Source of the DNA: Williamsia limnetica
Lineage (GTDB): Bacteria; Actinomycetota; Actinomycetes; Mycobacteriales; Mycobacteriaceae
NCBI RefSeq assembly: GCF_003217475.1
Contig: NZ_QJSP01000002.1
Location: 1 to 64,000 of the forward strand
Direction: 5' to 3'
DNA length: 64,000 nt
Below, in pieces: positions 11,090 to 27,727 of this stretch (position 1 is the stretch's first letter; the number at the start of each line of letters is the position of its first letter). The notes beneath the pieces are model-generated. The model saw only the letters and a list, made by a program, of their open reading frames with translations. It had not been told where the DNA came from and ran no database searches. Both the position numbers and the translations under genes were made by a program.

Positions 11090-11110
11090 TGTCCTCGCGT
11101 TCGAGGGTGC

Positions 11111-11926: not shown

Positions 11927-12062
11927 TGCGCTCTCTACGTTGCGGTCTCACACAGTGTCAGGGTCAAGGGTGCCGCATCCGAATGTGGTCGACAAGGGCA
12001 CGCTCGGTCGAAACAAAGTCCCGGTCAACGGCTTTAAGGGCCCGCTCGGCGTCTGGAACGGC

Positions 12063-12099
12063 AAAAACCGGGCCGCGCCGATGATGGCACGACCCGGTT
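12063..12099 (-). terminator. Terminator of the DHA2 transporter gene
   Basis: Read on the minus strand, AACCGGG (12099-12093), an interrupted GC-rich inner stem and CCCGGTT (12072-12066) form a hairpin followed by TTT. It lies just after the stop codon at 12115 and before the MerR gene promoter region. Confidence 0.7.
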
Positions 12100-12114
12100 C
12101 TTCGGCCGAGAGGT

Positions 12115-13656
12115 TCAGGCAGCGACGGGCACTGCGTTCTGGGTTTCGTCACCGAGGGCGTGTCGATTCATCCGGATCATGAAGACGGTGACGGCCAGGG
12201 CGAGAGCCATGAAGCCGGCGCCCCAGTAGAACGCCACGTCGTAGCTGTGGATGCTGGCCGCCATGAATGCCGCCGGATCGGCCGGAACGGGGTTGCCGTC
12301 GGCGCCGGCAGTCATTGCACTGCCCGAGCTGTTCGAGAAGACCTGAGCCACAATCGTGCTCAGAAGCGCGACACCCACCGAACCGCCGACCTGCTGAGCG
12401 GTGTTGACCAGTGCGCTGGCGACTCCGGAGTCCTTCTCGTCGATCCGGTGCAGGGCGACCGCCTGCATGGAGACGAACACCAGGCCCATGCCGAGGGCGA
12501 TCAGGAGCTCGCTGGGCAGGACGTGGGCGAGCCACGTCGAATCCGAATCCAGTTGCGCCAGGTACAGATATCCCAGGACGCCGGAAACGGTGCCGGCAAT
12601 CATCAGGGGCCTCGGTCCGAAGCGCGGAAGCAGTGAGCTGGCCGAGGCCGCGGAGATGATCAGCGCGATCGGGAACGGCAGGAACAAGATCCCGGCCCTC
12701 AGCGGCGTTTCTCCGAGGGTGTTCTGGAAGTAGTAGCTCAAGAACAGGAACATCGCGAACATGGCGGTCGGGATGATGAAGGCCACCAGGTAGGCGCCGC
12801 CCCGGTTGAGTTCACCCGGGATGCGCAGTGGCAGTAGCGGATGTGTGGTTCGCATCTCGATTGCGACGAATGCGGCAAGCAACGCGGCTCCGGCGACGAA
12901 CAGCAGGATGGTCGACGGTGCGCCCCAGCCCGATTCGGCGGCCTTGGTGAATGCGTAGACAATGGCGATCAGGCCGAGGGTGACCGTGACGGCACCGGGA
13001 ATGTCGTAGCCGCCGGTTCGTTTGGCAGGCCGATCCTTGATGACCAACCAGAGGCCGCCGATGGCCGCGATGATCGCGATCGGGGTGTTGACCAGCAGTG
13101 TCCAACGCCAGGACATGTACTCGGTGAGTGCGCCGCCTGCGATCAGGCCGATGGCGGCACCGCCGCCGGACACTGCTGCGTAGACGGCGAAAGCGCGTGC
13201 CCGTTCGCGGTGTTCGGTGAAGGTCACGGTGATCAGGGACAGAGCCGCGGGTGCGAGCATCGCTGCGAACACACCCTGTAGGGCGCGACCACCGAAGAAC
13301 GACATCTGATCCCAGGCGAACCCGGCCATGGCCGAGGAAGCCGCGAAGCCCGCGAGTCCGATCAGGAACATGCGGCGACGGCCCAGGTAGTCGGCCATAC
13401 GTCCCCCGAGGAGCAGTAGTCCACCGAACAGCAGGGTGTATGCCGTCAGTGCCCACTGCCGATTGGCATCCGAGATGTCCAGGTCGACCTGCGCATAGGG
13501 CAGGGCAATGGTGATGATGCTGGCGTCGAGAACCACCATGAGCTGGGCGAGGGCGATGATCCCCAGCGCCCACCAGCGGCGTGAGTCGCCGGTCGATTTA
13601 GGTGCGGTGTCGCGGTCAGGAAGGTCCTGCGCGATGACGGTGTTGGGTGAAGCCAC
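12115..13656 (-). CDS. MFS multidrug efflux transporter, DHA2 (14-TMS) family
   Basis: This protein of about 513 residues has 14 predicted membrane segments. DHA2 motifs include LDASIITIALPYAQVDL in TM1, the loop motif GGRMADYLGRRRMFLIG, and ALQGVFAAMLAPAALSL in TM4. It should export toxic organic compounds using the proton gradient. The GTG at 13656 is preferred because GAGG sits 5 nt upstream; in-frame starts further up add a non-conserved leader. The divergent TetR gene 146 bp away is the likely repressor. Confidence 0.9.
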   Translation of the reverse strand: MASPNTVIAQDLPDRDTAPKSTGDSRRWWALGIIALAQLMVVLDASIITIALPYAQVDLDISDANRQWALTAYTLLFGGLLLLGGRMADYLGRRRMFLIGLAGFAASSAMAGFAWDQMSFFGGRALQGVFAAMLAPAALSLITVTFTEHRERARAFAVYAAVSGGGAAIGLIAGGALTEYMSWRWTLLVNTPIAIIAAIGGLWLVIKDRPAKRTGGYDIPGAVTVTLGLIAIVYAFTKAAESGWGAPSTILLFVAGAALLAAFVAIEMRTTHPLLPLRIPGELNRGGAYLVAFIIPTAMFAMFLFLSYYFQNTLGETPLRAGILFLPFPIALIISAASASSLLPRFGPRPLMIAGTVSGVLGYLYLAQLDSDSTWLAHVLPSELLIALGMGLVFVSMQAVALHRIDEKDSGVASALVNTAQQVGGSVGVALLSTIVAQVFSNSSGSAMTAGADGNPVPADPAAFMAASIHSYDVAFYWGAGFMALALAVTVFMIRMNRHALGDETQNAVPVAA

Positions 13657-13742
13657 GAGATCCTCAAATCTGGAAGAGGGTGGATGCTGAATCGATCTGT
13701 CGCCCAATAGTGGCAGGCTCAGACAGAAGTCGTCAAGCGACA

Positions 13743-13762
13743 AAATGCACAATCGGACATTT
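13743..13762. promoter_or_regulatory. Candidate TetR operator in DHA2/TetR divergent spacer
   Basis: AAATG (13743-13747) and CATTT (13758-13762) form an inverted repeat with a 10-nt spacer, centred between the divergent starts at 13656 and 13803. A second short dyad, GTCG-N5-CGAC, lies about 15 bp away. Either could be the TetR site; only the symmetry supports it. Confidence 0.35.
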
Positions 13763-13802
13763 GGCGCACGAAGCAGCAATTTCGCCGAAGCGGAGTTATC
13801 AT

Positions 13803-14459
13803 GTGGACGTGAGTATCGCGGAAATCGGAACAGGCCAGGTCAAGGCAGGTCTCCGTGAACGGAAGAAGCTTCAGACGCGCGACCGGCTGATTGCCGCCGC
13901 GCTGGAGCTGTGTGACCAGCAAGGTTTCGACGCGACCACGGTCGAGCAGATCTCGGATGCCGCAGACATCTCGCCTCGGACGTTCAACCGCTACTTCGCC
14001 ACCAAAGAGGACGTTGTCCTCGCTCCGATCGAGGACATGATCGTCGCGATGGCGAACTCCCTCGAGGCGCAGCCGCGCTCCGACAATCAAATCGAGGCCC
14101 TGGTGAATGCGCAGGTCCAGATCTTGGGTGGACAATGCCCGACCGGGAGTGTGGATCTCACGCGGTTCGAGACGATGAACCGGATCATCCAGAACGCGCC
14201 GTCGGTGAATGCGCGCAGCATCGAACTGGGCGACCGGAAGATGAGGAGCATCACCGACCTGGTCGCCAAACGGATGGGCGAGCCGGCGGATGACCCGACG
14301 GTGCGGGTGACCGTCTCGGTCTACATGGCACTGATGCACATCTCGATGGATGAGTGGCGATGCGGCCAGGTCGGGTCAGCACCCGCAGACACCGCTGTTG
14401 CCGCCGACACCCTCAAATCGACGTACGAGATCTTCCGCGGGATCGCCAAAACCGTCTGA
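13803..14459 (+). CDS. TetR-family transcriptional repressor
   Basis: This 218-residue protein has a TetR DNA-binding domain (TRDRLIAAALELCDQQGFDATTVEQISDAADISPRTFNRYFATKEDVV, about residues 20-70). It has a helical C-terminal ligand domain with no close match that I can name. The GTG at 13803 has GGAG 7 nt upstream; a second in-frame GTG lies at 13809. Its divergent position next to the DHA2 pump is the classic efflux-regulator arrangement, so it probably represses the pump and itself until a drug binds. Confidence 0.88.
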   Translation: MDVSIAEIGTGQVKAGLRERKKLQTRDRLIAAALELCDQQGFDATTVEQISDAADISPRTFNRYFATKEDVVLAPIEDMIVAMANSLEAQPRSDNQIEALVNAQVQILGGQCPTGSVDLTRFETMNRIIQNAPSVNARSIELGDRKMRSITDLVAKRMGEPADDPTVRVTVSVYMALMHISMDEWRCGQVGSAPADTAVAADTLKSTYEIFRGIAKTV

Positions 14460-14468
14460 GGTCCAGGT

Positions 14469-15536
14469 TCAGTTGCTGTCGTCGTACTTGTTCTTCGAGT
14501 TCGTTCGCCAGTCGGAGAACTTACGGTTGACGCTCTCTGCCACATCCGAGGCAGCCTGACCAACGCCGTCGACCACCCCTCCGAGCCCGTCGCGGATCCC
14601 CTTGATCAATGGGTCTTCGGACTCGTCGAAGTTGTCGCGGTACGCCTTTCGCGCCGCGCCGATATCGTCGGCGACCTTGGCGCTGTCGTCGTCCTCGCGC
14701 CGCGGGTAGAGGCCGGCCACGATCTTTCCGTAACCACCGCGATCGACCCAGCGGTTGAGCTCTGCAGCTCGTAGCACCGAGAACGGGTGCGATTGCATCT
14801 CCAGGTTCAGCAACTTGAGGACGCCGTCGCGCAGGTCGCCGGTCCGCTCGTACTCTTTCGCCTGGGCGATGAACGCCTGGGTGTCCATCTGGTCGAGGTG
14901 CTTGCCGCCCGCCAGTTTCAGTTCCACGCGCAGCGCCACATCGAGGTCTTGGCTGCAGAGTAGTCCGGCGCGGTCGCCCGACAGCTCGGACTTGCGTTGC
15001 CACTCCATCAGTGCGGCGACGATCGCTCTCAAGGCCCACCCGCCGAGCGGGATGAACCCGATCGACGCGGCGATCCGGGTCAGGTGCATCAACATCGTTC
15101 GGTACACCGCGTGCCCCGACAGTGCGTGCCCGAGTTCGTGCCCGATGACAAAGCGCAGCTCGTCGTGGTCCATCAACTCGTACATGCCGGAGGTGACGAC
15201 GATGAAGGGCTTGTCCATCCCGATGCAGACGGCGTTCACCAGCGGCGATTGGGAGATGTAGAGCTCAGGCTTGACCGGCGCGTCGAGCGTTCTCACGCAC
15301 TCGTCGAGCAGAGCGTCGAGATCGGCGAATTGCCTCGGGCCCACCCGCGCAGAACTGGCGAGGTACAGCAACCGGTGCTGCCGTTCCCTCAGCAGACCCG
15401 ACAACGTCTTGAGGACCTGATCGAAACCTTTGAGTCTGCGCAGGGCGGTCAGCGCGGTGCGATCGGCGGGGTGTTCCCACGCCCGCGAACTTATGCCCGG
15501 AAACGGGGCGCGCACGGATACGGGTACATGGGTCAT
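14469..15536 (-). CDS. M48-family zinc metallopeptidase
   Basis: This 355-residue protein carries HELGH in VIGHELGHALSGHAVY and the downstream Glu segment ELSGDRAGLLCSQD, the zinc-site pattern of M48 (HtpX/Oma1-like) proteases. A central hydrophobic stretch (IAASIGFIPLGGWALRAIVAALM) could be membrane-embedded. The C-terminal 80 residues form an acidic, low-complexity helical tail. The ATG at 15536 has GGAGG 10 nt upstream. It probably degrades damaged membrane or surface-associated proteins. It stands alone, convergent with the TetR gene. Confidence 0.88.
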   Translation of the reverse strand: MTHVPVSVRAPFPGISSRAWEHPADRTALTALRRLKGFDQVLKTLSGLLRERQHRLLYLASSARVGPRQFADLDALLDECVRTLDAPVKPELYISQSPLVNAVCIGMDKPFIVVTSGMYELMDHDELRFVIGHELGHALSGHAVYRTMLMHLTRIAASIGFIPLGGWALRAIVAALMEWQRKSELSGDRAGLLCSQDLDVALRVELKLAGGKHLDQMDTQAFIAQAKEYERTGDLRDGVLKLLNLEMQSHPFSVLRAAELNRWVDRGGYGKIVAGLYPRREDDDSAKVADDIGAARKAYRDNFDESEDPLIKGIRDGLGGVVDGVGQAASDVAESVNRKFSDWRTNSKNKYDDSN

Positions 15537-15712
15537 CGTCGCTGGTCCTCCCTGTGCCGGATGAGACTGGTGCCCGGCAACCCGATCAACCGTAGCGAAA
15601 CCCGCGTTCACAGACCGCGAATGTAGTTCTTTCAGACGACCGAGCCGGACGCCACCGACAGGCGTTCCCCTGGCCGGTGGGAGGTGTCGGTTCCCTGGGT
15701 TAGTTTAGGACC

Positions 15713-17032
15713 GTGGGGACACAGCGATGGCGGGCCGATCAGGTGCTGGCGCTGGCCCCTGATGCGGGGTCCCAGGCAGCTGGTCGCAAGCTGGCCATCC
15801 CGACGCCGTGGTCGTCGACGGGCAGCGCGGACAACGTGGTGTGGGGACTGTGTACGGGCAGCGGCAGGAACCCGTATCAAACGATCGTCGACCTCAGCGG
15901 CCCCGCGTACAGGTGTTCATGCCCGTCCCGGAAGTTCCCGTGCAAGCACGCACTCGGTCTGCTGCTGCTCTGGGCAGCAGGCAGCGTTCCGGACGCGGCG
16001 GCGGTTGGTGATTTCGCCAGGCCGTGGATCGAGGAACGTGCCGCAAAGGCTGCAGCCGCAGTGCCCCGCCCCGAACGCGCCGAACCCAAGGATCCCGAGC
16101 GTGCGGCCCGAACCGCGGAGCAACGGGCAGTTCGGGTCGCAGGCGGGCTCGACGAGTTCGAGATGTGGCTCTCCGACCAGGTACGTAATGGACTCGCCGG
16201 CGCGGAGGCGGACCCGTATCGCCGATTCGACCCGGTGGCCGCACGACTCGTCGATGCCCAGGCGCCGGGGCTGGCCCGCCGGGTCCGGGAACTCCCCTCA
16301 TTGGTCACCGGTGCCCGGTGGCCTGAGCGGCTTCTGCGCGAACTCGCGATGCTGAGGCTGCTCGCACGCGCTCATGGACGCATCGATGAACTCGACCCGG
16401 CAATGGCCGCCAACGTTCGCCGACATCTCGGCTATCCGGTGGCGCGAGCCGACGTGTTGGCGACCGACCCGGTGCTCGACACCTGGCAGATCGTCGCGGT
16501 GCGTGACCGCGACGACGAACAGCTGATCACCCGCAGGGTCTGGTTGTGGGGCCACGCCACGGGCAGATGCGCTGTGGTGCTGTCGTTCTCGCCCACGGCG
16601 GCCGGCCTCGACGGTCGTTTGATCCCGGGGATGTCCTTTGCCGGACCGTTGCACTTCTATCCTGGAGCGCCGCCGCTGCGGGCATTGGTGCCCGAGGGCG
16701 ACCTGGGATTGAGAACCGCGACGCGCGGATCGGTCGTCGGGACAACAGTGCAGACCGCCCTCGCTCAGCGCGCCGACGCTATTGCGAAGGATCCTTGGCT
16801 GCAGAGTTTCCCGGTGGTCATCGTCGGCAGGCCGGCACTCGCCGATGGTCGCAGGCTGCTCGTGGATGACGACGGCGTGTCCATCGACCTCGACACCAGC
16901 GACGACCGTTGGTTCGCCTTGCTGGCAGTATCAGGAGGTCATCCGGTGCAGGTGTTCGGTGAACTCGGTACCGAGGGGCTCGACCCGGTCGCCACCGAGG
17001 CTTTCGCGGCGCACCGGTTCGGCGCGGCGTGA
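15713..17032 (+). CDS. SWIM zinc-finger protein (first gene of SWIM/DUF5691/MoxR/DUF5682/VWA cassette)
   Basis: This 439-residue protein has a SWIM motif CxC-x6-CxH near its N-terminus (C68, C70, C77, H79, in YRCSCPSRKFPCKHALGLLLLWA). The motif is predicted to bind zinc and contact DNA or protein. The remainder is helical, then beta-rich, and lacks a recognised catalytic motif. It is the first of five plus-strand genes, each overlapping the next. Its stop overlaps the following start as GTGA. The start GTG 15713 is weakly supported by ribosome-binding sequence. It is probably the nucleic-acid or substrate recognition part of the system. Confidence 0.85.
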   Translation: MGTQRWRADQVLALAPDAGSQAAGRKLAIPTPWSSTGSADNVVWGLCTGSGRNPYQTIVDLSGPAYRCSCPSRKFPCKHALGLLLLWAAGSVPDAAAVGDFARPWIEERAAKAAAAVPRPERAEPKDPERAARTAEQRAVRVAGGLDEFEMWLSDQVRNGLAGAEADPYRRFDPVAARLVDAQAPGLARRVRELPSLVTGARWPERLLRELAMLRLLARAHGRIDELDPAMAANVRRHLGYPVARADVLATDPVLDTWQIVAVRDRDDEQLITRRVWLWGHATGRCAVVLSFSPTAAGLDGRLIPGMSFAGPLHFYPGAPPLRALVPEGDLGLRTATRGSVVGTTVQTALAQRADAIAKDPWLQSFPVVIVGRPALADGRRLLVDDDGVSIDLDTSDDRWFALLAVSGGHPVQVFGELGTEGLDPVATEAFAAHRFGAA

Positions 17033-18531
17033 ACGGCTGGGACGAGTTGGTCTCGGCAGCGACGGTCGGCGTCGGCGGCAAGGCTCTCGACCTCGGTGAG
17101 CTCGATCCTGCGATCGCCTCCGCGGCGGCCATGGTCGATCGCAAAGACCCTGTGTCTGCCGTACTTTCGATCGCCGCACTCGACACCATCGCCACGCGGG
17201 CCGGCATGCCGACCGGTCCGCCGGTGCAGGTGATACCTCCCGCACCGGACGATCAGGGCCGGGTCATGAGCGACCGTCTTGCCGGATTGCTCGGACAAGC
17301 ACTGGATTCGGGTGACGAGATGGCCACGTGGGCGATCGAGGCGATGGCTGCACGCGACGTGCGGGTGCCGCCTGAACTGATCCCGATGCTGTTGCAGCGC
17401 ACCAGACGGCACGTCAGAATACGGCCCGCTGTCGCAGTCCTGGTGGGCGCCAGAGGCCGGTGGCTCGCCGAGGTCAGCGGCATCTCATCGGTGTTGCCAC
17501 CCAAAGATCTGGGTGTGCAACCCGAAAGCGCCGCTGATTTCGAGGAGACCTGGGCGTACGGAAGCACGCCCGCCCGGGTGGAGGTGCTCCGTCTGTGGCG
17601 ATCGGAGGATGCCGCGGGCGCGCTGCGGCGACTGGAAACGGTCTGGCCCTGCGAACCGGGTGATACCCGGGCCGCACTGATCGGCGCGCTCGAGATCGGA
17701 CTGTCGGCGGCCGATGAGGTGTTCCTCGATCAGGCACTCGACGATCGCAAGGGGTCGGTGCGTGCGGTGGCCGCGCGACTGCTGAAGGACATCCCGGGCT
17801 CCCGGTTGCAGCAACGGATGATCGAACGTTCCCGGCGTCTGCTCGTCGCATCCGGCCGTGGCCGTCGGCTGACGTTGTCACTGGTGTTGCCCGCAGGCGT
17901 TGACGACTCGGCACAGAGAGACGGCATCAACCCCAAGCCACCGCGAGGCACGGGCGCCGGCACCTGGCTGGCGGGGCAGGTCTTGCAGAACACCCCACTG
18001 GGACTGTGGGAGAGCATGTTCGAGAAGACTCCCGAGATACTCGTCGGGGCGGTGGCGGATGACGACGCCGAGACCGTGCTGGGTGCCTGGGGCGAGGCAG
18101 CCGTCGCGCAACGCAACGCGACGTGGGCGGCCGCGCTGTACCGTGCGCCCGGCGCCGACCCCGCACTGATCGGCGTCCTCGACGACCCGAAGCGGAGTGA
18201 GGCGGCTGTGTGGTGGCTACGCAACCGCCGACCACCCGGCAATGTGCTGGCCCATGTGCCGGCGCCCTGGACCGATGAGGTCGCCGCGACTGCCTTGAAT
18301 GCAGCACTGCGTGAATCGATCTCACCGTCGGCGTCCCCGCTGTGGCACTGGCGCGGTCTCGTCGACCTGCTCCGGCTCGGACTGCCGGTCGGCCCTGCGT
18401 ATCGCTGGATCGAACAGATCGACGCGGCGCGCGACCGGATGAAGGGCGGCTGGCCGCAGCTGCTCGAACCACTCAAGTGGGCGCTGATCTTGCGCACCGC
18501 GATCACCGAGGAGATGCATGACGAATCCTGA
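17029..18531 (+). CDS. DUF5691 protein (cassette gene 2)
   Basis: This 500-residue protein matches the DUF5691 family, which I recognise mainly from this gene context. It is leucine- and alanine-rich and probably made of helical repeats (HEAT-like segments such as LDDRKGSVRAVAARLLKDIP). A conserved centre ends in GAGTWLAGQVLQNTPLGLWE. No enzyme motif is visible, so it may be a scaffold. It overlaps the SWIM gene by 4 nt and the MoxR ATPase gene by 14 nt, implying coupled translation and a shared complex. Confidence 0.8.
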   Translation: MNGWDELVSAATVGVGGKALDLGELDPAIASAAAMVDRKDPVSAVLSIAALDTIATRAGMPTGPPVQVIPPAPDDQGRVMSDRLAGLLGQALDSGDEMATWAIEAMAARDVRVPPELIPMLLQRTRRHVRIRPAVAVLVGARGRWLAEVSGISSVLPPKDLGVQPESAADFEETWAYGSTPARVEVLRLWRSEDAAGALRRLETVWPCEPGDTRAALIGALEIGLSAADEVFLDQALDDRKGSVRAVAARLLKDIPGSRLQQRMIERSRRLLVASGRGRRLTLSLVLPAGVDDSAQRDGINPKPPRGTGAGTWLAGQVLQNTPLGLWESMFEKTPEILVGAVADDDAETVLGAWGEAAVAQRNATWAAALYRAPGADPALIGVLDDPKRSEAAVWWLRNRRPPGNVLAHVPAPWTDEVAATALNAALRESISPSASPLWHWRGLVDLLRLGLPVGPAYRWIEQIDAARDRMKGGWPQLLEPLKWALILRTAITEEMHDES

Positions 18532-19612
18532 ACAGGACATCCTGCGCCCGCACGCCGAACAGCTCTACGCCGACGAACTGGAGGCGCTTGCCCGATCCGA
18601 CGACAGGCCGCGGCCGCAGCGGTGGAACATGTCGCCGCCGGCGGTGGTGACCTATCTGCTCGGCGGCACGCTGAGTGACGGAACGGTCATCTCCCCTAAA
18701 TACGTCGGTCCGCGACGCCTGATGGAAGTCGCGGTCGCCACGCTCGCCACCGACCGGGCACTGCTGCTTCTCGGTGTTCCGGGTACCGCGAAGACCTGGG
18801 TGTCCGAACACCTCAGCGCGGCGATCAGCGGACGCTCGACCCTGCTGATCCAGGGCACCGCGGGCACCCCCGAAGAAGCGATTCGCTACGGATGGAACTA
18901 CGCGCGTCTCCTCGCCGAAGGGCCGAGTGAGCAGGCGCTGGTGCCCTCGCCGGTGATGACCGCGATGCGCGAGGGCAAGATCGCGCGCATCGAAGAACTC
19001 ACCCGCATCCCCTCCGATGTTCAGGACGCGCTGATCACGGTGCTGTCGGAAAAGTCGCTGCCCATCCCCGAACTCGGCACCGAAGTGCAAGCCGCCAAAG
19101 GCTTTTCCGTGATCGCCACGGCGAACAATCGCGACCGCGGTGTCAACGAACTGTCGTCGGCGTTGCGCAGGCGGTTCAACACCGTCGTGCTGCCGCTTCC
19201 TGCGACGGCTGACGAAGAGGTGTCCATCGTGACCCAGCGGGTCCAGGCACTCGGCCAGACGCTGGATCTGCCAGAGATCCCGAGTGCGTCCGAGGAGATC
19301 CGCCGCGTGGTCACGGTGTTCCGCGAACTGCGGTCAGGGCTCACCTCCGACGGCCGCACCCGCGTCAAACAACCCTCGGGCACCCTGTCGACCGCCGAGG
19401 CGATCTCGGTGGTCACCCACGGGGTGGTGATGTCGGCGCACTTCGGCGACGGGGTTCTGCGGCCGTCCGACACGGCGGCAGGCATCCTCGGTGCCGTGGT
19501 CAAGGATCCGGTCGCGGACGCCGTCGTGTGGACCGAGTACCTCGAAGCCGTTGTGCGCGAGCGCAAGGACTGGGCCGACTTTTACCGGGCGTGCCGCGAG
19601 GTCGACCATTGA
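18518..19612 (+). CDS. MoxR-type AAA+ ATPase (cassette gene 3)
   Basis: This 364-residue ATPase has Walker A GVPGTAKT at 86-93, a Walker B-like block ARIEELTRIP at 156-165 where the usual Asp-Glu is Glu-Glu, sensor-1 ATANNRD, and an arginine-finger region LSSALRRRFN. The MoxR class works with VWA proteins as chaperone-like remodelers that insert cofactors or activate partners. Here the VWA gene lies two positions downstream. The start overlaps DUF5691, and the stop overlaps the next start as TTGA. Confidence 0.93.
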   Translation: MTNPEQDILRPHAEQLYADELEALARSDDRPRPQRWNMSPPAVVTYLLGGTLSDGTVISPKYVGPRRLMEVAVATLATDRALLLLGVPGTAKTWVSEHLSAAISGRSTLLIQGTAGTPEEAIRYGWNYARLLAEGPSEQALVPSPVMTAMREGKIARIEELTRIPSDVQDALITVLSEKSLPIPELGTEVQAAKGFSVIATANNRDRGVNELSSALRRRFNTVVLPLPATADEEVSIVTQRVQALGQTLDLPEIPSASEEIRRVVTVFRELRSGLTSDGRTRVKQPSGTLSTAEAISVVTHGVVMSAHFGDGVLRPSDTAAGILGAVVKDPVADAVVWTEYLEAVVRERKDWADFYRACREVDH

Positions 19613-21912
19613 CGACGGTGTCCGTCCTGGGGGTACGCCATCACGGGCCGGGGTCGGCCCGTGGCGTACTCGCCGAACTCGACCGGATCGACCCCGACAT
19701 CATCTTGATCGAAGGGCCGGCAGATGCTGATCCGCTCGTCGGTTTCGTAGGATCCGCGGACATGACGCCGCCGGTCGCGATCCTCGCGTATGCGGTCGAT
19801 CGTCCTGCCGTCGCCGCATTTTGGCCGTTCGCGGCGTTCTCGCCGGAATGGCAGGCCATGCAATGGGCCGCCCGTTCGGAGGTACCTGTCCGGTTCTGCG
19901 ATCTGCCCGCCGCGATGGTGCTCGCCCACGGTCGTCGTGGCGACAAGGAGGCCGCCGACATTCCGGATGATGACCTCACCCTCGACCTGGCCGAGCCGGA
20001 CGGCCTCGACGCGAGCGCACCGGTACGTACCGACCCCATCGGCGTGCTTGCCGACGCCGCCGGATACGACGATCCGGAACGCTGGTGGGACGACGTCATC
20101 GAAACCCGTACCGATGGTGGAGGCTTCGACGCGATAGCCGAGGCCATGGCCGCGCTGCGGGGCGAGCTACCGCCGGTGGGTGACCTCGGCGAGCGGCTCC
20201 ACGAGGAACGCCGCGAAGCACAGATGCGGCAAGTGCTCCGCAAGGCGTTGAAAGAACCGGGCGTGGAGCGGGTCGTGGTCGTCTGTGGGGCCTGGCACGC
20301 ACCGGCGCTGATGGGCAAGTTGCCGCCCGCGTCCGCCGACGCGAAAGTGCTGCGCGGCACCCCCAAGGTCCGGGTGAAGCTCGCCTGGGTGCCCTGGACG
20401 CATTCGCGGCTGGCCTTTGCCTCCGGATACGGCGCGGGCGTGGTCTCGCCCGGCTGGTATCACCATCTGTTCACCCAGCCGCAGGAGGTGATCACCCGCT
20501 GGCTCATCAAGGTGGCCCGACTGTTGCGGGACAAAGACATTGCGATCTCCTCGGCGCACGTCATCGAAAGCGCCCGCCTGGCCGAAGCCCTCTCGTCGCT
20601 ACGCCGCCGGCCGTTGCCCGGGCTCGCCGAGGTCACCGAGGCCATCGAGGCGGTGATGTGCGATGGCGACGACTCCGTGATGGCGCTCATCAACGACGAA
20701 CTGGTGATCGGCGAACTGCTGGGCTCGACGCCTGCCGATGCCCCGACCGTCCCACTCGAGGCGGATCTGCGCGCCACCGCCCGGTCGGCCAGACTCAAGA
20801 TCGACCCCATGATCAAGCAAGTCGTCCTCGATCTCCGAAAACCGACGGATCTGGCGAAATCTGTATTGCTGCATCGGCTCGCATCCCTCGACATCGACTG
20901 GGGCGTGCCCGAAGACGTCAGCGGTTCGGGCACCTTCAAGGAAGGCTGGCGACTTGCGTGGAAGCCGGACTTCGCGATCGACATCGTCGTCGCGGCGGTG
21001 TGGGGCACCACCGTCGAGGCCGCCTCGACCAGCAGACTGATCGACCGCGCCACGACCGCGTCGCGTCTGGCCGAGATCACCTCCGTCCTAGAGCAGGCGT
21101 TACTGGCCGACCTCCCGGAGGCCGTCAGCCGGGTGCTCGGCGCCCTGCGAGACCGCGCTGCCATCGATCGCGACGTCGAGCATCTGATGAACGCGCTGCC
21201 CGCACTGTCGCGGGCTCTGCGATACGGCGACGTGCGCGGCACCGACACGCGGGCGCTCGCCGAGGTCACCACATCTCTGCTCACCCGGGTGTGCGCCGGC
21301 CTGCCCGCTGCCGTCACCGGCCTCGGAGCCGAGGCGGCTGCGGAGTTCCGCACCCTGATCGATCAGGTGCAGGAGGTCACCGATCTTCTCGAGCAGGGCG
21401 GGATCGCCGGTGAGGAGGCGGCGAGCTGGCGCACAGTGCTCCGAGCGCTGGCCGACCGGCGGGACCTGCACGGCTCACTGGTCGGTCGAATCGTGCGTAT
21501 TCTCTTGGACTCTCGGGAGATCGACGCCGACGAGGCCGCGACCAGGCTGCACCGGGCACTGTCGGTGGGTGCGGTCCCGGCCGAGAAGGCGGCCTGGATC
21601 GACGGCTTCATCGGTGGGGGCGGGCTGCTGCTGGTGCACGACCGGTCGCTGCTCGCCGTCATCGACCACTGGCTCGCAGGACTGCCCGACGAGCAGTTCG
21701 ACGAGTTGGTTCCCTTGCTGCGGCGCACGTTCAGCTTGTTCGAAGCGGGTATCCGCCGCAACATCGCGGAGTCGGTGAAGGGAATAGGTGGCGGCGTGAT
21801 CGCGGTGGCCGCACCCTCGCAGATCGATGCAGACCGTGCGGCGCCGGCCGTGGCTGTCGTCGCGGACCTGCTGGGTCTGCAGCAGGCAGTGGAGGACAGT
21901 GCTGATGTCTGA
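19609..21912 (+). CDS. DUF5682 protein (cassette gene 4)
   Basis: This protein of about 767 residues belongs to DUF5682, of unknown function. Its first 240 residues show conserved polar motifs: VRHHGPGSA (His 11-12), LIEGP (Glu 35) and GAWHAPAL (His 230). Together they resemble the His/Glu pattern of the EreA/ChaN/TraB-Tiki fold, suggesting a catalytic or metal-binding N-terminal domain (inference). The rest is long and helical. TTG 19609 overlaps the MoxR stop; GTG 19618 is the alternative start. It overlaps the VWA gene by 8 nt. Confidence 0.85.
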   Translation: MTTVSVLGVRHHGPGSARGVLAELDRIDPDIILIEGPADADPLVGFVGSADMTPPVAILAYAVDRPAVAAFWPFAAFSPEWQAMQWAARSEVPVRFCDLPAAMVLAHGRRGDKEAADIPDDDLTLDLAEPDGLDASAPVRTDPIGVLADAAGYDDPERWWDDVIETRTDGGGFDAIAEAMAALRGELPPVGDLGERLHEERREAQMRQVLRKALKEPGVERVVVVCGAWHAPALMGKLPPASADAKVLRGTPKVRVKLAWVPWTHSRLAFASGYGAGVVSPGWYHHLFTQPQEVITRWLIKVARLLRDKDIAISSAHVIESARLAEALSSLRRRPLPGLAEVTEAIEAVMCDGDDSVMALINDELVIGELLGSTPADAPTVPLEADLRATARSARLKIDPMIKQVVLDLRKPTDLAKSVLLHRLASLDIDWGVPEDVSGSGTFKEGWRLAWKPDFAIDIVVAAVWGTTVEAASTSRLIDRATTASRLAEITSVLEQALLADLPEAVSRVLGALRDRAAIDRDVEHLMNALPALSRALRYGDVRGTDTRALAEVTTSLLTRVCAGLPAAVTGLGAEAAAEFRTLIDQVQEVTDLLEQGGIAGEEAASWRTVLRALADRRDLHGSLVGRIVRILLDSREIDADEAATRLHRALSVGAVPAEKAAWIDGFIGGGGLLLVHDRSLLAVIDHWLAGLPDEQFDELVPLLRRTFSLFEAGIRRNIAESVKGIGGGVIAVAAPSQIDADRAAPAVAVVADLLGLQQAVEDSADV

Positions 21913-23080
21913 GCAACCCGAGCCGGATCAGGCAGAGGACGCGCGCCTGCGCCGCTGGCGGATGGTCGTCGGGTCGCAGGCCGATGAGGCACTCGGCAAG
22001 CCCGGTGGCAGACAGATGCAGGAGATGGACAGCTCGCTCGCCGCGCTGTACGAGGCGCCCCGCAGCCGCCGGGGAGGCCTCGGCGGATCGGCGCCGTCGG
22101 TCGCGCGCTGGCTCGGAGACATCCGGAAGTATTTCCCGTCCAACGTCGTTCAGGTGATGCAACGCGATGCCGTCGAACGGCTGGGGATCACCGCACTGCT
22201 CGCCGAGCCAGAGCTGATGGACACCGTCGAAGCGAACATCGACATGGTGAGCACCTTGATCGGTCTGGGCAAGGCGATTCCCGAGACCTCACGAGCTTCG
22301 GCCCGCACTCTCGTGCGCAAGGTGGTCGACGACGTCGAACGCCGGATCGCCGATCAGACCAGGGCGGCGATCACCGGAGCGCTCAATCGGGCTGCGACGA
22401 CACATCGGCCCAGACCTGCTGACATCGACTGGAATCGGACGATCGCGAAGAACCTCAAACACTATCTGCCCGAGTATCGAACGGTCATCCCGCAGCAGCT
22501 GGTGGGACACGGACGCCGTTCGCAGCAGCTGGGTCGCGATGTGGTGGTCGCCATCGATCAATCCGGGTCGATGGCGGCGTCGATCGTCTACGCATCGATC
22601 TTCGGTTCGGTGCTCGCCTCGATGCGATCGATCCGTACGTCCTTGGTGCTCTTCGACACCGAGGTCGTTGATCTGACCGACGAATTGGACGACCCGGTGG
22701 ATGTCCTGTTCGGGGCCACTCTCGGGGGCGGTACCGATATCAACCAGGCGATCGCCTACTGCCAGGGCCTGATCACCCGGCCGACCGAATCGATTTTCGT
22801 GCTCATCTCGGACCTGTACGAGGGTGGTCTCCGGGACAAGATGCTTGCCCGGGTCGCGGCGATGACCGCCGCCGGTATCACAGTGATAGTGCTGCTGGCG
22901 CTGTCTGACGAGGGTGCCCCCGCTTTTGACCGTGACATCGCAACGGCGTTGGCCGACATGGGTATTCCGGCCTTTGCCTGTACGCCCGACGCCTTCCCGG
23001 AATTGCTGGCGGTGGCGATCGGGCGCGGCGACATCACGGCCTGGGCGGCCTCGAAAGAGCTGGAGCAGCGCGGGATGTGA
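21905..23080 (+). CDS. VWA-domain protein (cassette gene 5)
   Basis: This 391-residue protein has a helical N-terminal half and a C-terminal von Willebrand A domain. The MIDAS metal site is complete: DQSGS at 218-222, GGGTD near 275, and SDLYEG further on. VWA proteins of this CoxE-like class pair with MoxR ATPases, the VWA part holding a target through a metal-bridged contact. ATG 21905 has GGAGG 9 nt upstream. It closes the five-gene operon and is convergent, 3 bp away, with the iron-binding lipoprotein gene; no terminator hairpin was seen. Confidence 0.92.
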   Translation: MSEQPEPDQAEDARLRRWRMVVGSQADEALGKPGGRQMQEMDSSLAALYEAPRSRRGGLGGSAPSVARWLGDIRKYFPSNVVQVMQRDAVERLGITALLAEPELMDTVEANIDMVSTLIGLGKAIPETSRASARTLVRKVVDDVERRIADQTRAAITGALNRAATTHRPRPADIDWNRTIAKNLKHYLPEYRTVIPQQLVGHGRRSQQLGRDVVVAIDQSGSMAASIVYASIFGSVLASMRSIRTSLVLFDTEVVDLTDELDDPVDVLFGATLGGGTDINQAIAYCQGLITRPTESIFVLISDLYEGGLRDKMLARVAAMTAAGITVIVLLALSDEGAPAFDRDIATALADMGIPAFACTPDAFPELLAVAIGRGDITAWAASKELEQRGM

Positions 23081-23083
23081 ACG

Positions 23084-24064
23084 TCAGGCGGGGATCTTCT
23101 CTGCTGCCGTCGCGATCAGGTCGAGCGAATAGGGAACCGAGTAGACCGTCGGGGTGCCCAGGGCGCTTGCGTTGTTGTTGTCCAGGAAGACGGTGGCGCC
23201 CGACTTCACCGCGGTCCGGTTCGCCCAGCCCGGCAGGGCGTCGAAAGCGGCGGGGTCGCCGCCGAGTGGCCACAGGACCAACAGGTCGGAGTCGAGTAGG
23301 TCGGTGCGCTCGGCCGACACCAGCACACGGCTCTGACCCTGCGCGACTTCCTTGATCTTGGGGTCGAGGACAAAGCCCATCTGGGTCATGAGTTTGGCGC
23401 TCGGGTCGTTTTCGTCGGCAACCAAACCGATCTGACCCTCATTGGTCAACTGCCCGAACGAGAAGGTCTTGCCCTGTGAGTTCGGGTGCGCGGCCTTGAA
23501 GTCGGCAATGTCTTTCTCGACTCCGTCGACCAGGGATTGGGCTTTCTCCTGCTTGCCGAAGATCTTGCCGGCGGTGAGGGTGACGTCTTGCCATGAATCC
23601 ATGACCGCGTCTTTCTGCATCACCGGGATGACCGGGGCGACCTGGCTCAGGCGTTTGTACTCGTCTTCACTGCCCAGGTATCCGGCCAGGATGAGATCCG
23701 GCTCGAATGCAGCGAGCTGGGGAACACCGATCGAGTCGACTCCGAAGAAGGGGACGATCTCGGACTCGTGCGCCGGCGTCCACTCGAACTTGTTGTTCTC
23801 GCCGGAGTACCCCTCGGTGACGTACTCGGCCCTGATCGGCACGTCCAGGGCGACCAGCGCATCGGTCCAGTTGCCCAGCATGGTGACCACCACCTTCGGC
23901 TCGGAGTCGATGGTGGTGGAGCCGAACTCGTGCGCGATCGTGATCGGTTCGAACCCGGTGCTCTCGGACTTCTCGTCGTCCGGAGAACTGCAGCCCGCGA
24001 CCACGAGCGCCATCGTCATCAGTGCGGTTCCCACCACACCGGCCCGACGTGAGAACTTACTCAA
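23084..24064 (-). CDS. Iron-siderophore ABC transporter substrate-binding lipoprotein
   Basis: This 326-residue lipoprotein has a signal peptide and lipobox VVAGC (Cys 25), followed by the FecB/FepB-type two-lobed fold: EPKVVVTMLGNWTDALVALDVP, then FEPDLILAGYLGSEDEYKRLSQVAPVIP. It should sit on the outer face of the membrane and deliver Fe(III)-siderophore to a permease/ATPase, none of which is encoded nearby. A probable IdeR/DtxR iron box precedes it, so expression is expected under iron starvation. Confidence 0.9.
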   Translation of the reverse strand: MSKFSRRAGVVGTALMTMALVVAGCSSPDDEKSESTGFEPITIAHEFGSTTIDSEPKVVVTMLGNWTDALVALDVPIRAEYVTEGYSGENNKFEWTPAHESEIVPFFGVDSIGVPQLAAFEPDLILAGYLGSEDEYKRLSQVAPVIPVMQKDAVMDSWQDVTLTAGKIFGKQEKAQSLVDGVEKDIADFKAAHPNSQGKTFSFGQLTNEGQIGLVADENDPSAKLMTQMGFVLDPKIKEVAQGQSRVLVSAERTDLLDSDLLVLWPLGGDPAAFDALPGWANRTAVKSGATVFLDNNNASALGTPTVYSVPYSLDLIATAAEKIPA

Positions 24065-24096
24065 TGCTTACCCCTTTGTGCGTACCGCTGCGTTGC

Positions 24097-24117
24097 GGTT
24101 AGGGGAGCCTAACCAAT
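24097..24117. promoter_or_regulatory. Probable IdeR/DtxR iron box
   Basis: GGTTAGG (24097-24103) and CCTAACC (24108-24114) form a perfect 7-bp inverted repeat. Aligned from 24099, 14 of 19 positions match the actinobacterial iron-box consensus TTAGGTTAGGCTAACCTAA (my alignment by eye). It lies about 35 bp before the siderophore-binding lipoprotein start, consistent with iron-dependent repression. Confidence 0.7.
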
Positions 24118-24152
24118 AGTGCGATGTCGAGGCAAGGCCAGGTCGGCAGCTC

Positions 24153-25574
24153 CTACTGGGTGCGCGATTTCTGGGTCGCGGCCGGCGAGGCGTCGGTGTT
24201 GCCGTACTTCTTCTGCCGCCAGACTCCGATGGCTACGATGACCACAGCAGAGATGGTCGAGAGGGTGATCGCATCGCGCTGGTCGGAGTCGAAGGCCATC
24301 AACAACAGAACCGCGACGATGAACACGATCACCGCGACGGTCAGGTACGGGAACAGCCACATGGTGACCGCGGGTTTGTCGCCGCGCGCCCGCATCGTCC
24401 GACCGAGGACGAATTGGCTCACGGCAATCGACAGATAGACGAAGAGGGCCACGGCACCGCTGGTGGCCAGCAGGTAGCCGAAGATCTTGTCCGGCAGCAC
24501 GTAGTTGCCGACGACCGCGAGAAATCCAAGGGCCATCGAGGCGATCACCGACACCCACGGCACCCCGTTTCCGGTCAGCTTCGTCACCGCAGAAGGGGCC
24601 TCACCACGCTCGCCGAGCGAGAACAACATCCTCGACGCGGTGTAGAGAGCGGAGTTGAGGCAGGACGCCACCGCGGTGAGTACGACGACGTCCATGATCT
24701 GTGCCGACGCAGGGATGCCGATGGCCTCCAGCACCGTCTGGTAGGAGCCGTCGTCGAGTTGGTTGTACGGGACCAGGGCCACCACCACGAAGATCGAACC
24801 GATGTAGAAGATGCTGATGCGCCAGATCACAGAGTTGACCGCTTTCCGAATCCCCTTCTCCGGGTTGGGTGATTCGGCTGCGGCGATCGTGACGATCTCG
24901 GTACCCATGAACGAGAACATCGTCACCAGCATGGCGGAGATGATCGCGGTGTACCCATTGGCGAAGAAGCCGTCCGGTTCCCACAGATGGCTGACCCCAC
25001 TGGTCTCCGACCCGGGGAACAGGCCCAGGATCGCGACCACGCCGATGGCGATGAAGGCAACGATGGCAACGACTTTGATGAGTGCGAACCAGAACTCGAA
25101 CTCGCCGTAGTTCCCGACGCTGACGAGGTTGGTCGCGGTCAGGAGCAAGGTCACCGCCAGTGCCCAGATCCACTGTTCACCGCCGATGAGCTTGCTGAAG
25201 ATCTCTGCGGCCGCGGTGGCTTCCACCGGGATGACGAGGACCCAGAACCACCAGTAGAGCCAGCCGACGGAGAAGCCCGCCCAACGGCCCATCGCGCGGT
25301 GGGAGTAGACGGAAAACGATCCGGTGTCGGGGTTGGCGGTGGCCATCTCGCCGAGCATTCGCATCACCAAGATCACCAGCGTGCCCGCGAGGGCATAGGA
25401 GATGAGGACGGCGGGGCCGGCCTTCTCGATGGCGGTGGCCGATCCGACGAACAGACCGGCGCCGATGACGCCTGCGATCGAGATCATGGTGATGTGTCGC
25501 GGTTTGAGCGAAGTACCCAGCTGTCCCGGTGCCGCGTTTGTGCTGCCGGCCGCGTGCTGATCCTCGGTTGTCAT
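24153..25574 (-). CDS. Amino-acid permease, APC superfamily (GabP/AnsP-like)
   Basis: This 473-residue protein has 12 membrane segments and the amino-acid-transporter signature: KPRHITMISIAGVIGAGLFVGSATAI in TM1, then MLGEMATANPDTGSFSVYSHRAMGRWAGFSVGWLYWWFW. Related carriers import GABA, asparagine, phenylalanine or proline with protons; the exact substrate is not readable. ATG 25574 has GGAGG 6 nt upstream and is preferred over 25628. It is divergent from an Asp/Glu-racemase-family gene, so the two may be co-regulated. Confidence 0.9.
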   Translation of the reverse strand: MTTEDQHAAGSTNAAPGQLGTSLKPRHITMISIAGVIGAGLFVGSATAIEKAGPAVLISYALAGTLVILVMRMLGEMATANPDTGSFSVYSHRAMGRWAGFSVGWLYWWFWVLVIPVEATAAAEIFSKLIGGEQWIWALAVTLLLTATNLVSVGNYGEFEFWFALIKVVAIVAFIAIGVVAILGLFPGSETSGVSHLWEPDGFFANGYTAIISAMLVTMFSFMGTEIVTIAAAESPNPEKGIRKAVNSVIWRISIFYIGSIFVVVALVPYNQLDDGSYQTVLEAIGIPASAQIMDVVVLTAVASCLNSALYTASRMLFSLGERGEAPSAVTKLTGNGVPWVSVIASMALGFLAVVGNYVLPDKIFGYLLATSGAVALFVYLSIAVSQFVLGRTMRARGDKPAVTMWLFPYLTVAVIVFIVAVLLLMAFDSDQRDAITLSTISAVVIVAIGVWRQKKYGNTDASPAATQKSRTQ

Positions 25575-25645
25575 GTCCGACCTCCGGTTTGTCCCTGCAA
25601 GGTTGTCCCCGGGGTCGCGCGGGATCAAACAACGGACATTTAGTT

Positions 25646-25661
25646 CACATGGACCGATGTG
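25646..25661. promoter_or_regulatory. Candidate operator, CACAT-N6-ATGTG
   Basis: A 5-bp inverted repeat CACAT/ATGTG with a 6-bp gap lies in the divergent spacer between the permease (start 25574) and the racemase-family gene (start 25685). Only symmetry and position support it. Confidence 0.3.
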
Positions 25662-25684
25662 TTGCGCTATGCGAACATCAACGC

Positions 25685-26455
25685 ATGGACAGCAACATCC
25701 TGTCTCTGGTGCCCGAACCCGAGACGCCCGGTGCGACCACCGGCATCGGCATGGTGTGCCCCTTCGACATGGCCCTGGACAGAGAGCTGTGGCGATGGAT
25801 GCCGTGGTCGGTGTCGCTGTATTTCACCCGCACCCCGATGCCGCCGTTGTCGCTGGTGGATGTCGACATGGTCAGCGCGCTCGGGGAGCATTCGCAGATT
25901 CGGGATGCTGTCCGCAGTGTCCTCGGGGTGCGGCCCGCCGCTGTTGGCTATGCCTGCGCGTCGGGAAGTTTTGTGCACGGTGTCGCAGGTGCCAAGGCCT
26001 TGTCGGACTGCATGCGCGACGCCGGAGCCCCGGCGGCGATCACGACGTCCGAGGCGCTGCTGCGAGCCCTCGACGTGCTCGATCTCGGGCGGGTCGCTGT
26101 CGCGACACCTTATGTCGCATCGCTGACCGACCTGCTCTGCGACTTTCTCGCCGAAGCGGGCCGGACCGTGGTCTCGCAGGCAGGACTGGGCTACGACCAC
26201 GACATCTGGACCATTCCTTACCGCGCGACCGCGGATCTGATCCGGGCCGCCGACAGCCCCGAGGCCGACGCCATCTTTGTCTCCTGCACCAATCTGCCGA
26301 CCTACGACATCCTGTCAACGCTCGAGGCCGAGCTCGGCAAACCCGTGTTGTCAGCAAACCAGGTGACCGCGTGGGCGACGTTGCAGGAGGCCGGCGTCGT
26401 CGACCACGCCGCCGAACCCTGCTCGGTGCAGTCGCTCTTCGGTCGCGTCGCCTGA
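25685..26455 (+). CDS. Asp/Glu racemase superfamily protein, maleate isomerase/arylmalonate decarboxylase type (two-Cys)
   Basis: This 256-residue protein has both cysteines expected of the maleate isomerase/Asp-Glu racemase fold: Cys 91 in GYACASGSFV and Cys 201 in SCTNLPTYD, each next to its conserved Ser/Thr. Such enzymes isomerise, racemise or decarboxylate small dicarboxylates. A homologue, EutA, occurs in ectoine-use clusters. A paralogue lies 0.4 kb downstream on the other strand. ATG 25685 is chosen at the conserved start; ATG 25649 would add 12 residues. Confidence 0.82.
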   Translation: MDSNILSLVPEPETPGATTGIGMVCPFDMALDRELWRWMPWSVSLYFTRTPMPPLSLVDVDMVSALGEHSQIRDAVRSVLGVRPAAVGYACASGSFVHGVAGAKALSDCMRDAGAPAAITTSEALLRALDVLDLGRVAVATPYVASLTDLLCDFLAEAGRTVVSQAGLGYDHDIWTIPYRATADLIRAADSPEADAIFVSCTNLPTYDILSTLEAELGKPVLSANQVTAWATLQEAGVVDHAAEPCSVQSLFGRVA

Positions 26456-26469
26456 GTAGTGTTCTGCAC

Positions 26470-26856
26470 ATGACCGCACCGTTTGGGCAGGCAGGCACCG
26501 CGAAGTACGTGCAACTGACGACGTTCCGAAATGACGGCACCCCGGTCGCGACCCCGCTGTGGGCCGCACTGGACGGCGACAAGCTCGTGATGTGGACGGT
26601 GACCGATTCGTGGAAGGTCAAGCGGATCCGCCGCAATCCGGAGGTGCTGGTGCAGGCGTGTGATGCCCGCGGCAAAAAGGCCTTCGGCGACATCGTGAAG
26701 GGCACTGCGGAGATCCAGGACGCCGGCGGCACCGAGCGCACGCGTAAGGCGATAGCCAAGAAGTACGGGATTCTCGGGTGGATCACCGTCAAAGGCAGTC
26801 AGTTGCGCCGTGGCGACGGTGGCACCATCGGGCTGGCGATCACCCCGCGCGAGTAG
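26470..26856 (+). CDS. PPOX-class F420-dependent oxidoreductase
   Basis: This 128-residue split-barrel protein matches the pyridoxamine-phosphate-oxidase-like F420 family: AKYVQLTTFRNDGTPVATPLWAALDGDKLVMWTVTDSWKVKRIRRNPEVLVQACDARG. Members use F420 or a flavin to reduce varied substrates. It lies 14 nt after the two-Cys racemase-family gene. A 17-bp tandem duplication starts inside its last codons and runs past the stop. Confidence 0.86.
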   Translation: MTAPFGQAGTAKYVQLTTFRNDGTPVATPLWAALDGDKLVMWTVTDSWKVKRIRRNPEVLVQACDARGKKAFGDIVKGTAEIQDAGGTERTRKAIAKKYGILGWITVKGSQLRRGDGGTIGLAITPRE

Positions 26857-26873
26857 TCACCCCGCGCGAGTAC
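26840..26873. repeat. 17-bp tandem duplication across the PPOX stop codon
   Basis: Two adjacent copies of a 17-bp unit (26840-26856 and 26857-26873) differ at one base. The first copy ends with the TAG stop of the PPOX gene; the second fills the spacer before the convergent racemase-family stop. It looks like a recent slippage or duplication event. Confidence 0.8.
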
Positions 26874-27590: not shown

Positions 27591-27676
27591 CGTCGTCCTC
27601 TCTGCTCGGTCCTCGACCTGTTGTCGGATCTGGACAGGGCTGGTCTGTCCACTTCGAGACCGGTACATTACGGTAA

Positions 27677-27688
27677 ATTGTCAACAAT
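27677..27688. promoter_or_regulatory. Shared operator palindrome ATTGTCAACAAT, copy 1
   Basis: ATTGT-CA-ACAAT sits in the divergent spacer between the racemase-family gene (start 27590) and the amidase (start about 27728); outer bases TA/TA extend the symmetry. The identical 12-mer occurs at 46318-46329. The form suits a FadR-type GntR/FCD dimer, and such a gene lies 2 kb downstream (29637). Confidence 0.65.
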
Positions 27689-27727
27689 CTACCAAGAGGT
27701 TCGCCGGATGCGGAGGTGAGTACGGAC

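Follow-up and report, generated by a model that had tools for sequence, protein, structure and literature searches.

The first 64,000 nucleotides of contig NZ_QJSP01000002.1 of Williamsia limnetica (RefSeq assembly GCF_003217475.1, forward strand), here called the window, carry a compact cassette of five plus-strand genes at positions 15,713 to 23,080, encoding a SWIM zinc-finger protein, a DUF5691 protein, a MoxR AAA+ ATPase, a DUF5682 protein, and a VWA adaptor. An earlier reading made from the letters of the DNA (the sequence-only reading) had named these five families and had placed successive overlaps of 4, 14, 4, and 8 nucleotides between the genes; both are borne out with the starts chosen here, with Pfam support for all five products. 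The features of the cassette are listed below, with the names Walker A, Walker B, sensor Asn, and metal ion-dependent adhesion site (MIDAS) being those that we take to apply to the sites concerned, and with AF2 denoting AlphaFold2.

15713..17032, plus strand: SWIM zinc-finger protein, 439 amino acids, GTG start (Pfam SWIM, 1.9e-6)
15914..15949, plus strand: putative SWIM zinc ligands C68, C70, C77, and H79 (each in 77/79 aligned proteins past the length filter)
17029..18531, plus strand: DUF5691 protein, 500 amino acids, GTG start, predicted ARM/HEAT-like helical solenoid (Pfam, 1.1e-100)
18518..19612, plus strand: MoxR AAA+ ATPase, YehL-like, 364 amino acids, ATG start (AAA_5, 3.1e-40)
18773..18796, plus strand: MoxR Walker A, GVPGTAKT (G, P, G, T, and K in 97/97 rows; the A before K in 95/97)
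18992..18997, plus strand: MoxR Walker B acidic pair, EE (97/97 aligned rows)
19609..21912, plus strand: DUF5682 protein, 767 amino acids, TTG start (Pfam, 4.7e-268; AF2 mean predicted local distance difference test score 85.3, predicted template modelling score (pTM) 0.78)
19609..20424, plus strand: DUF5682 N-terminal alpha/beta domain, probably TIKI/TraB-like (motif set, TraB profile match, strand-helix layout)
19639..19644, plus strand: DUF5682 H11-H12, candidate active-site His (22/22)
19711..19713, plus strand: DUF5682 E35, candidate active-site Glu (22/22)
20212..20217, plus strand: DUF5682 R202-E203, aligned with the TraB RN pair (22/22)
20287..20298, plus strand: DUF5682 G227-x-x-H230, second His motif (22/22; TraB alignment)
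21905..23080, plus strand: VWA (CoxE-type) adaptor protein, 391 amino acids, ATG start (Pfam VWA_CoxE, 1.7e-51)
22556..22570, plus strand: VWA MIDAS motif, DQSGS (D, S, and S of DxSxS each in 97/97 aligned rows)

The mechanical open reading frames (ORFs) of DUF5682 and VWA open earlier than the starts chosen here, at 19528 and 21827 respectively. In alignments with the E. coli proteins YehL, YehM, and YehP, residue 1 of the window MoxR corresponds to residue 1 of YehL, the TTG codon of DUF5682 aligns to residue 1 of YehM, and the start of the window VWA is offset by two residues from the YehP start.

The recurrence of the set was followed in 80 loci, the best-scoring of at least 538 relatives, picked by DUF5682 alone in a manner that favours close kin, with the best-listed DUF5682 relatives being those of Williamsia (93% and 85% identical). 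All five families are present at 70 of these 80 loci, with 53 of the 70 full cassettes having all genes on one strand in the order of the window (52, together with L131, which has an extra DUF4132 gene), and in the other 17, including those of Streptomyces and its kin, SWIM-DUF5691 is divergent from MoxR-DUF5682-VWA, a form seen also in loci such as L033–L036, L085, and L086. Of the ten incomplete loci, six reach the end of their contig on the side of the missing genes (L072, L074, L090, L103, L105, and L108). Going by record titles, 11 loci among the 80 lie outside Actinomycetota, and eight of these 11 carry all five families. Phyla beyond Actinomycetota in which the set occurs are Cyanobacteriota, Bacteroidota, Planctomycetota, Chloroflexota, and Pseudomonadota. 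The sequence-only reading had described a recurring actinobacterial gene group; the recurrence holds, whereas a restriction to actinobacteria does not, given these 11 loci and the sister form in E. coli described below.

Among 296 genomes drawn evenly from the window's phylum, DUF5682 and DUF5691 were each found in 21, the latter at E 0.001 (18 above the cut-off), and in a draw of 201 genomes of the window's family, DUF5682 was found in 66 (65 above the cut-off) and DUF5691 in 64, with four genomes of the family-draw list holding only DUF5682 and three only DUF5691. Within Williamsia, eight of the nine listed genomes, the window's own included, have DUF5682. In the family draw, 61 of 71 DUF5682 places and 61 of 70 DUF5691 places have the other family within 5 kb, in a count that omits fragment rows and rows under the cut-off, and the two families thus occur mostly together rather than mostly apart, the latter being the pattern that the sequence-only reading had held would speak against it. 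Nine unlinked DUF5691 copies all belong to one genus of the window's family, with the profile matched only from ~42–65 onward. DUF5691 paralogs at L133–L136 and L143 (ORFs of 462–519 amino acids) have no other cassette gene alongside in these five contexts, and short DUF5691 matches at L039, L040, L042, L051, and L052, all from one family of the phylum, have an ORF that covers approximately the first half of the profile.

The architecture of the set was surveyed, using profiles built for this analysis, in 20 stretches covering 33 match rows of the phylum draw, and then in 11 more. MoxR, DUF5682, and VWA occur together in 20/20 loci and in 6/6 DUF5682-bearing loci of the second set, as well as in 72 of the 80 best relatives, where, for four of the eight exceptions, the contig runs out on the side of the missing gene. 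Around this core the outer modules are exchanged. Architecture A adds SWIM and DUF5691 (13/20), architecture B adds DUF4132 (2/20, and 3/6 in the second set), and architecture C, with neither SWIM and DUF5691 nor DUF4132 (5/20, and 3/6), takes the form of MoxR with a DUF5682-VWA fusion, or of VWA-MoxR-DUF5682. A YehQ relative accompanies the architecture B loci L050, L140, and L141 and is present in E. coli, with none found in L045 and L137. When placed on a quick tree built from 49 MoxR rows, in which long branches limit the deep forks, the five architecture labels require four changes, the minimum possible; architecture A forms one side of a branch with a support of only 42, and architecture B alone needs two changes.

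Mean pairwise identity, calculated over 62 of the 70 full cassettes, falls from 0.763 for MoxR through 0.676 for VWA, 0.550 for DUF5682, and 0.444 for SWIM to 0.361 for DUF5691, such that divergence climbs from the motor to the arm; this pattern, a slowly changing motor with rapidly diverging outer modules, is consistent with a machine that turns its arm towards targets which themselves change. Furthermore, 13 fused ORFs match both the SWIM-protein and DUF5691 profiles, ten of which include the zinc-finger end, and three ORFs are DUF5682-VWA fusions. Together with the kept gene order, these fusions support the proposal of the sequence-only reading that the five products work as one machine. 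Two further observations concern the surroundings of the variants. In Niastella populi (L131) the DUF4132 gene (12876-15209) follows directly after an architecture A cassette, and large ORFs with no Pfam match are shared beside architecture C loci (L047 387-6458 and 10278-13298; L142 3299-5207; L138 3426-5435); these could be genuine partners or ORFs read in the wrong frame.

A counterpart is found in E. coli K-12, where yehL is annotated as MoxR, yehM as uncharacterised, yehP as VWA, and yehQ as a SWIM protein, and where YehM is a DUF5682 protein (Pfam, 2.4e-98). Local identity to the window proteins is 41% for MoxR and YehL over nearly the full length, 28% for DUF5682 and YehM, and 32% for VWA and YehP. 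Among 43 rows of the quick tree, the window MoxR groups with YehL, separate from RavA and from five further MoxR-like stretches in the window's genome, with a support of 82 and long-branch warnings, in a tree for which a named reference is missing for five of the seven named subfamilies. The neighbourhood of yehL, with VWA, DUF5682, and SWIM genes, is also present around the window MoxR, and both its YehL-like sequence and this local gene structure agree with membership of the YehL subfamily. Judged by sequence, yehL-yehM-yehP-yehQ is a sister system of the window cassette. Of 5426 E. coli genomes, 5301 contain a match to yehLMPQ DNA and 5162 cover at least 80% of the query, a measure of DNA cover rather than of gene intactness; for yehI the corresponding numbers are 5283 and 5177.

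Whilst yehI-yehL-yehM-yehP-yehQ shares with the window a MoxR-DUF5682-VWA triad in the same order and a SWIM protein beside it, DUF4132 (yehI; WGR in yehF) stands where the window has DUF5691, and the SWIM gene comes last rather than first. YehQ resembles the window SWIM protein in the SWIM family alone, and the two sequences are not alignable. Homology of the window SWIM protein to YehQ, and of DUF5691 to DUF4132/YehI, was considered and rejected, with no BLAST signal and a profile score no higher than the best of 15 shuffles in either case. In the MG1655 annotation yehH (L002 9411-12270), which adjoins yehI and has matches to the DUF4132 profile, is a pseudogene. Seven MoxR subfamilies have been named, YehL among them, with no function given for it in the available part of the paper concerned (PMC3893208), and in the accessible portions of two further papers yehM is among genes mutated under copper (PMC12409786) and a yehQ deletion among butanol-tolerance strains (PMC6442406), neither with a mechanism. 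The tie between the actinobacterial five-gene set and this uncharacterised locus makes the role of a YehL-class MoxR testable in a laboratory strain.

The motor sites are strictly kept, with the MoxR Walker A lysine, Walker B pair, and sensor Asn present in 97/97 rows past the E and length filters, as is a later Asp of VWA (D301 of the alignment). In NorQD, a VWA finger is described as inserting into the AAA+ pore, with the ring pulling a partner, an example of force coupling between MoxR and VWA (PMC13036017, in the part available). The window set shares the MoxR AAA+ and VWA pair with NorQ-NorD, CbbQ-CbbO, and RavA-ViaA, and differs from them in a third constant, hydrolase-like partner, in the SWIM/HEAT pair, and in showing no linked client enzyme.

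The sequence-only reading had suggested that DUF5682 may carry an enzyme-like domain, which gains support from a motif set kept in every sequence compared and from a profile match to TraB. In 22/22 DUF5682 sequences, comprising those of 20 loci of all architectures, E. coli, and the window, residues H11, H12, E35, D98, E165, R202, E203, G227, and H230 are among those invariant, and the two His and the Glu of the GxxH ... E ... GxxH layout of TIKI/TraB proteins occur in the same register as in TraB. In the AF2 model of DUF5682, H11-H12 immediately follow strand 1, E35 belongs to strand 2, the R202-E203 pair is part of a long helix, and H230 comes directly behind a later strand. Comparison of the DUF5682 N-domain profile with a ten-row TraB profile aligns R[EN]..M...GxxH with a score of 31.3 (P 0.0017, 41 rows) or 27.6 (P 0.0042, 35 rows), with none of 200 block shuffles reaching 31.27 (highest 22.3) and a score of 14.2 for the reversed profile.

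TraB and Ere belong to one superfamily, and compared with each other using the same small sets they reach only P 0.15. In a subset of 60 genomes of the phylum draw, TraB was found in 1/60 and Ere in 9/60. On the strength of its motifs and layout, the DUF5682 N-domain is read as TIKI/TraB-like, and would be a hydrolase, probably a peptidase or an amidase. It shares with the TIKI/TraB/Ere superfamily the N-terminal series GxxH ... E ... R[N/E] ... GxxH, in register with TraB, and differs in its double His, Arg-Glu in place of Arg-Asn, the lack of the ExH Glu, a large helical C-terminal half, and its place in a MoxR-VWA cassette. A set of two His and two Glu including the ExH Glu is described for superfamily members in the available part of PMC6254334, and as the ExH Glu is absent we label the domain TIKI/TraB-like rather than file it within the superfamily. 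DUF5682 thereby gains a testable candidate active site, and the constant core is set apart from the exchangeable arms. A sequence search of the PDB with DUF5682 gave no matches to E 1.

The remaining two products would form the arm. The DUF5691 sequence profile matches designed HEAT repeats (E 2.9e-4), and an AF2 model, made for a naturally fused SWIM-DUF5691 protein (L093) rather than for the window proteins, is helical with ARM/HEAT structure matches. From this profile match and this model, DUF5691 is read as an ARM/HEAT-like solenoid, in agreement with the helical scaffold proposed by the sequence-only reading. The same fusion model suggests a layout of the SWIM protein as SWIM, a helical bundle, and a beta-rich C-terminal domain.

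We propose, with a probability of about 0.45, that the five genes encode one ATP-driven, recognition-gated hydrolase machine. A MoxR ring coupled to VWA would work on DUF5682, whose TIKI/TraB-like hydrolase domain would be seated on a helical platform, while the SWIM protein and the DUF5691 solenoid would act as a single recognition arm selecting the target, and ATP turnover would open this target or deliver it to the hydrolase. DUF5682 may be the pulled or gated partner of MoxR-VWA, as suggested by its fusion to VWA in three loci and by analogy with the NorQD model. The E. coli yeh form would use another arm (WGR/DUF4132 and YehQ) on the same core. The complex would presumably be cytosolic, and quality control of a specific target, as housekeeping or in times of stress, is a likelier setting than phage defence. 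That it constitutes a new kind of ATP-dependent protease or amidase, in which a MoxR-VWA motor feeds a TIKI-fold hydrolase with exchangeable arms (SWIM and HEAT, or WGR/DUF4132 and SWIM), is a bolder and rather doubtful extension; if true, such a machine spans many phyla and stands unrecognised in nearly every E. coli.

Several observations weigh against this proposal. The cyanobacterial loci L097, L102, and L106 lack, respectively, the four other genes, VWA, and MoxR, SWIM, and DUF5691, although sequence is present, and L119 has no VWA match in its remaining 1.7 kb. The pTM of the L093 fusion model is 0.43. A second DUF5682-TraB alignment, at GxxHH..E, is in register and not significant (P 0.35–0.56), nor is the match to the Ere family profile (P 0.10–0.18), and a two-row TraB set gives no match. 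The ExH Glu of the 2His/2Glu set is replaced in DUF5682 by V9/R10, and is absent also in the TraB rows compared. With Foldseek and VIA-align, the whole DUF5682 model was matched in its helical half only (helical repeats), with no TIKI-class structure for residues 1-272; the lack of a TIKI-class chain among the structures listed in a whole-model search is no evidence against a TIKI fold. Additionally, DUF5682 as a partner worked by MoxR is not distinguished from DUF5682 as a tether.

Unlikely, yet a serious contender, is a maturation chaperone of the NorQD/CbbQO/RavA-ViaA kind, in which MoxR-VWA would remodel or metal-load an unlinked enzyme and DUF5682, DUF5691, and SWIM would be non-catalytic binding platforms. 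MoxR-VWA pairs of known role do mature or remodel enzymes (PMC3893208 and PMC13036017, in the portions available), the window VWA is CoxE-like by Pfam, and both DUF5682 and DUF5691 contain long helical stretches. No recurrent client enzyme appears, however, as not one of the 18 largest neighbour clusters listed is present in more than 18 of the 80 loci. The clusters, which derive from a crude longest-ORF pick in GC-rich DNA with many picks probably in wrong frames, are mostly of Streptomyces or Nocardia type, and one, present at eight loci, is shared by several actinobacterial genera, although neither its distance nor its strand is constant. The HH/E/RE/GxxH set kept in every DUF5682 sequence would also be unusual for a mere platform. 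A nucleic-acid-directed stress response, with SWIM (or WGR) binding DNA or RNA and the motor-hydrolase clearing proteins off the nucleic acid, draws on domains frequently associated with nucleic acid, namely SWIM in both arms and WGR in the arm of the E. coli type, and is the least probable of the explanations considered.

Only slightly more probable is an anti-phage or anti-mobile-element conflict system of the MoxR-vWA ternary type, in which the SWIM/DUF5691 arm would sense an invader and DUF5682 would be the effector. Predicted conflict systems have MoxR-vWA pairs as their core (Kaur et al. 2020, PMC7159879), and vWA-MoxR-VMAP sets lie near type III CRISPR loci (PMC10910872), as far as the accessible text of each goes. 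The window set resembles the ternary systems in its MoxR-vWA pair, constant third protein, and varying extra modules, and differs from those in the available part of PMC7159879 in lacking the four named third components, in being near-universal in E. coli, and in its few architectures; the words SWIM, YehL, TIKI, and TraB are absent from the main text of that paper. On the architectural variability of such systems, the presence of all five families in 70/80 close relatives stands against three architectures among the 26 further loci.

Pfam holds models for VMAP, iSTAND, FtsH, and propeller domains. No match to VMAP, iSTAND, FtsH, or beta-propeller models was found in the five window proteins at E 0.1, and the best match in PADLOC-DB has an E of 0.014, over a 31-residue stretch of MoxR around the P-loop, whilst the window MoxR exceeds the bpMoxR cut-off by 1.3 bits. 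Matches occur in 33 of 72,556 plasmid records, some of chromosome size, and in one of 50,697 phage records. Three plasmid copies were inspected, of which one is an E. coli yeh stretch, while the other two run from SWIM to DUF5682 as in type A, with a VWA gene annotated in one of them. In the yeh copy (L175) the chromosome stretch from yehI-yehQ to mlrA lies between two IS26 copies, beside resistance genes, and in the Methylosinus plasmid pOB3b3 (L176) SWIM-DUF5691-AAA-DUF5682 has insertion sequence elements and a Phd/VapC toxin-antitoxin pair nearby, with no VWA in an incomplete gene table. The phage record, MT835988.1 (14 kb, "Bacteriophage sp."), has a DUF5682 relative (28%) at 10638-12770 and may be a bacterial contig. 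Defence is disfavoured by the near-universal presence in E. coli, the presence in eight of the nine genomes listed for the genus, and the lack of any better PADLOC match, and is left open by the fast arms, the exchange of modules, and the plasmid copies. The conflict-system hypothesis of the sequence-only reading therefore gains little, with the ordinary neighbours in the window counting further against it.

No mention of DUF5682 or DUF5691 was found in the open-access literature, and a paper elsewhere is possible. The available portions of papers on SWIM, MoxR, and vWA contain nothing on this five-gene set (PMC4858521 and PMC10910872), the former placing MoxR/GvpN with vWA only near archaeal pili. 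Within the accessible open-access text, no described function for the set was found, as the sequence-only reading had held.

The cassette is flanked on its 5' side by a divergent M48 peptidase gene and on its 3' side by a convergent periplasmic-binding protein gene, and a Pfam scan of ten neighbour proteins (9993-29158) assigns nine to ordinary families and leaves one without a match. Directly 5' of the SWIM GTG, TTAGTTTAGGACC at 15700-15712 is kept in Williamsia sp. 1135 (L053) and not in L054, and could be the -10 element of a leaderless transcript.

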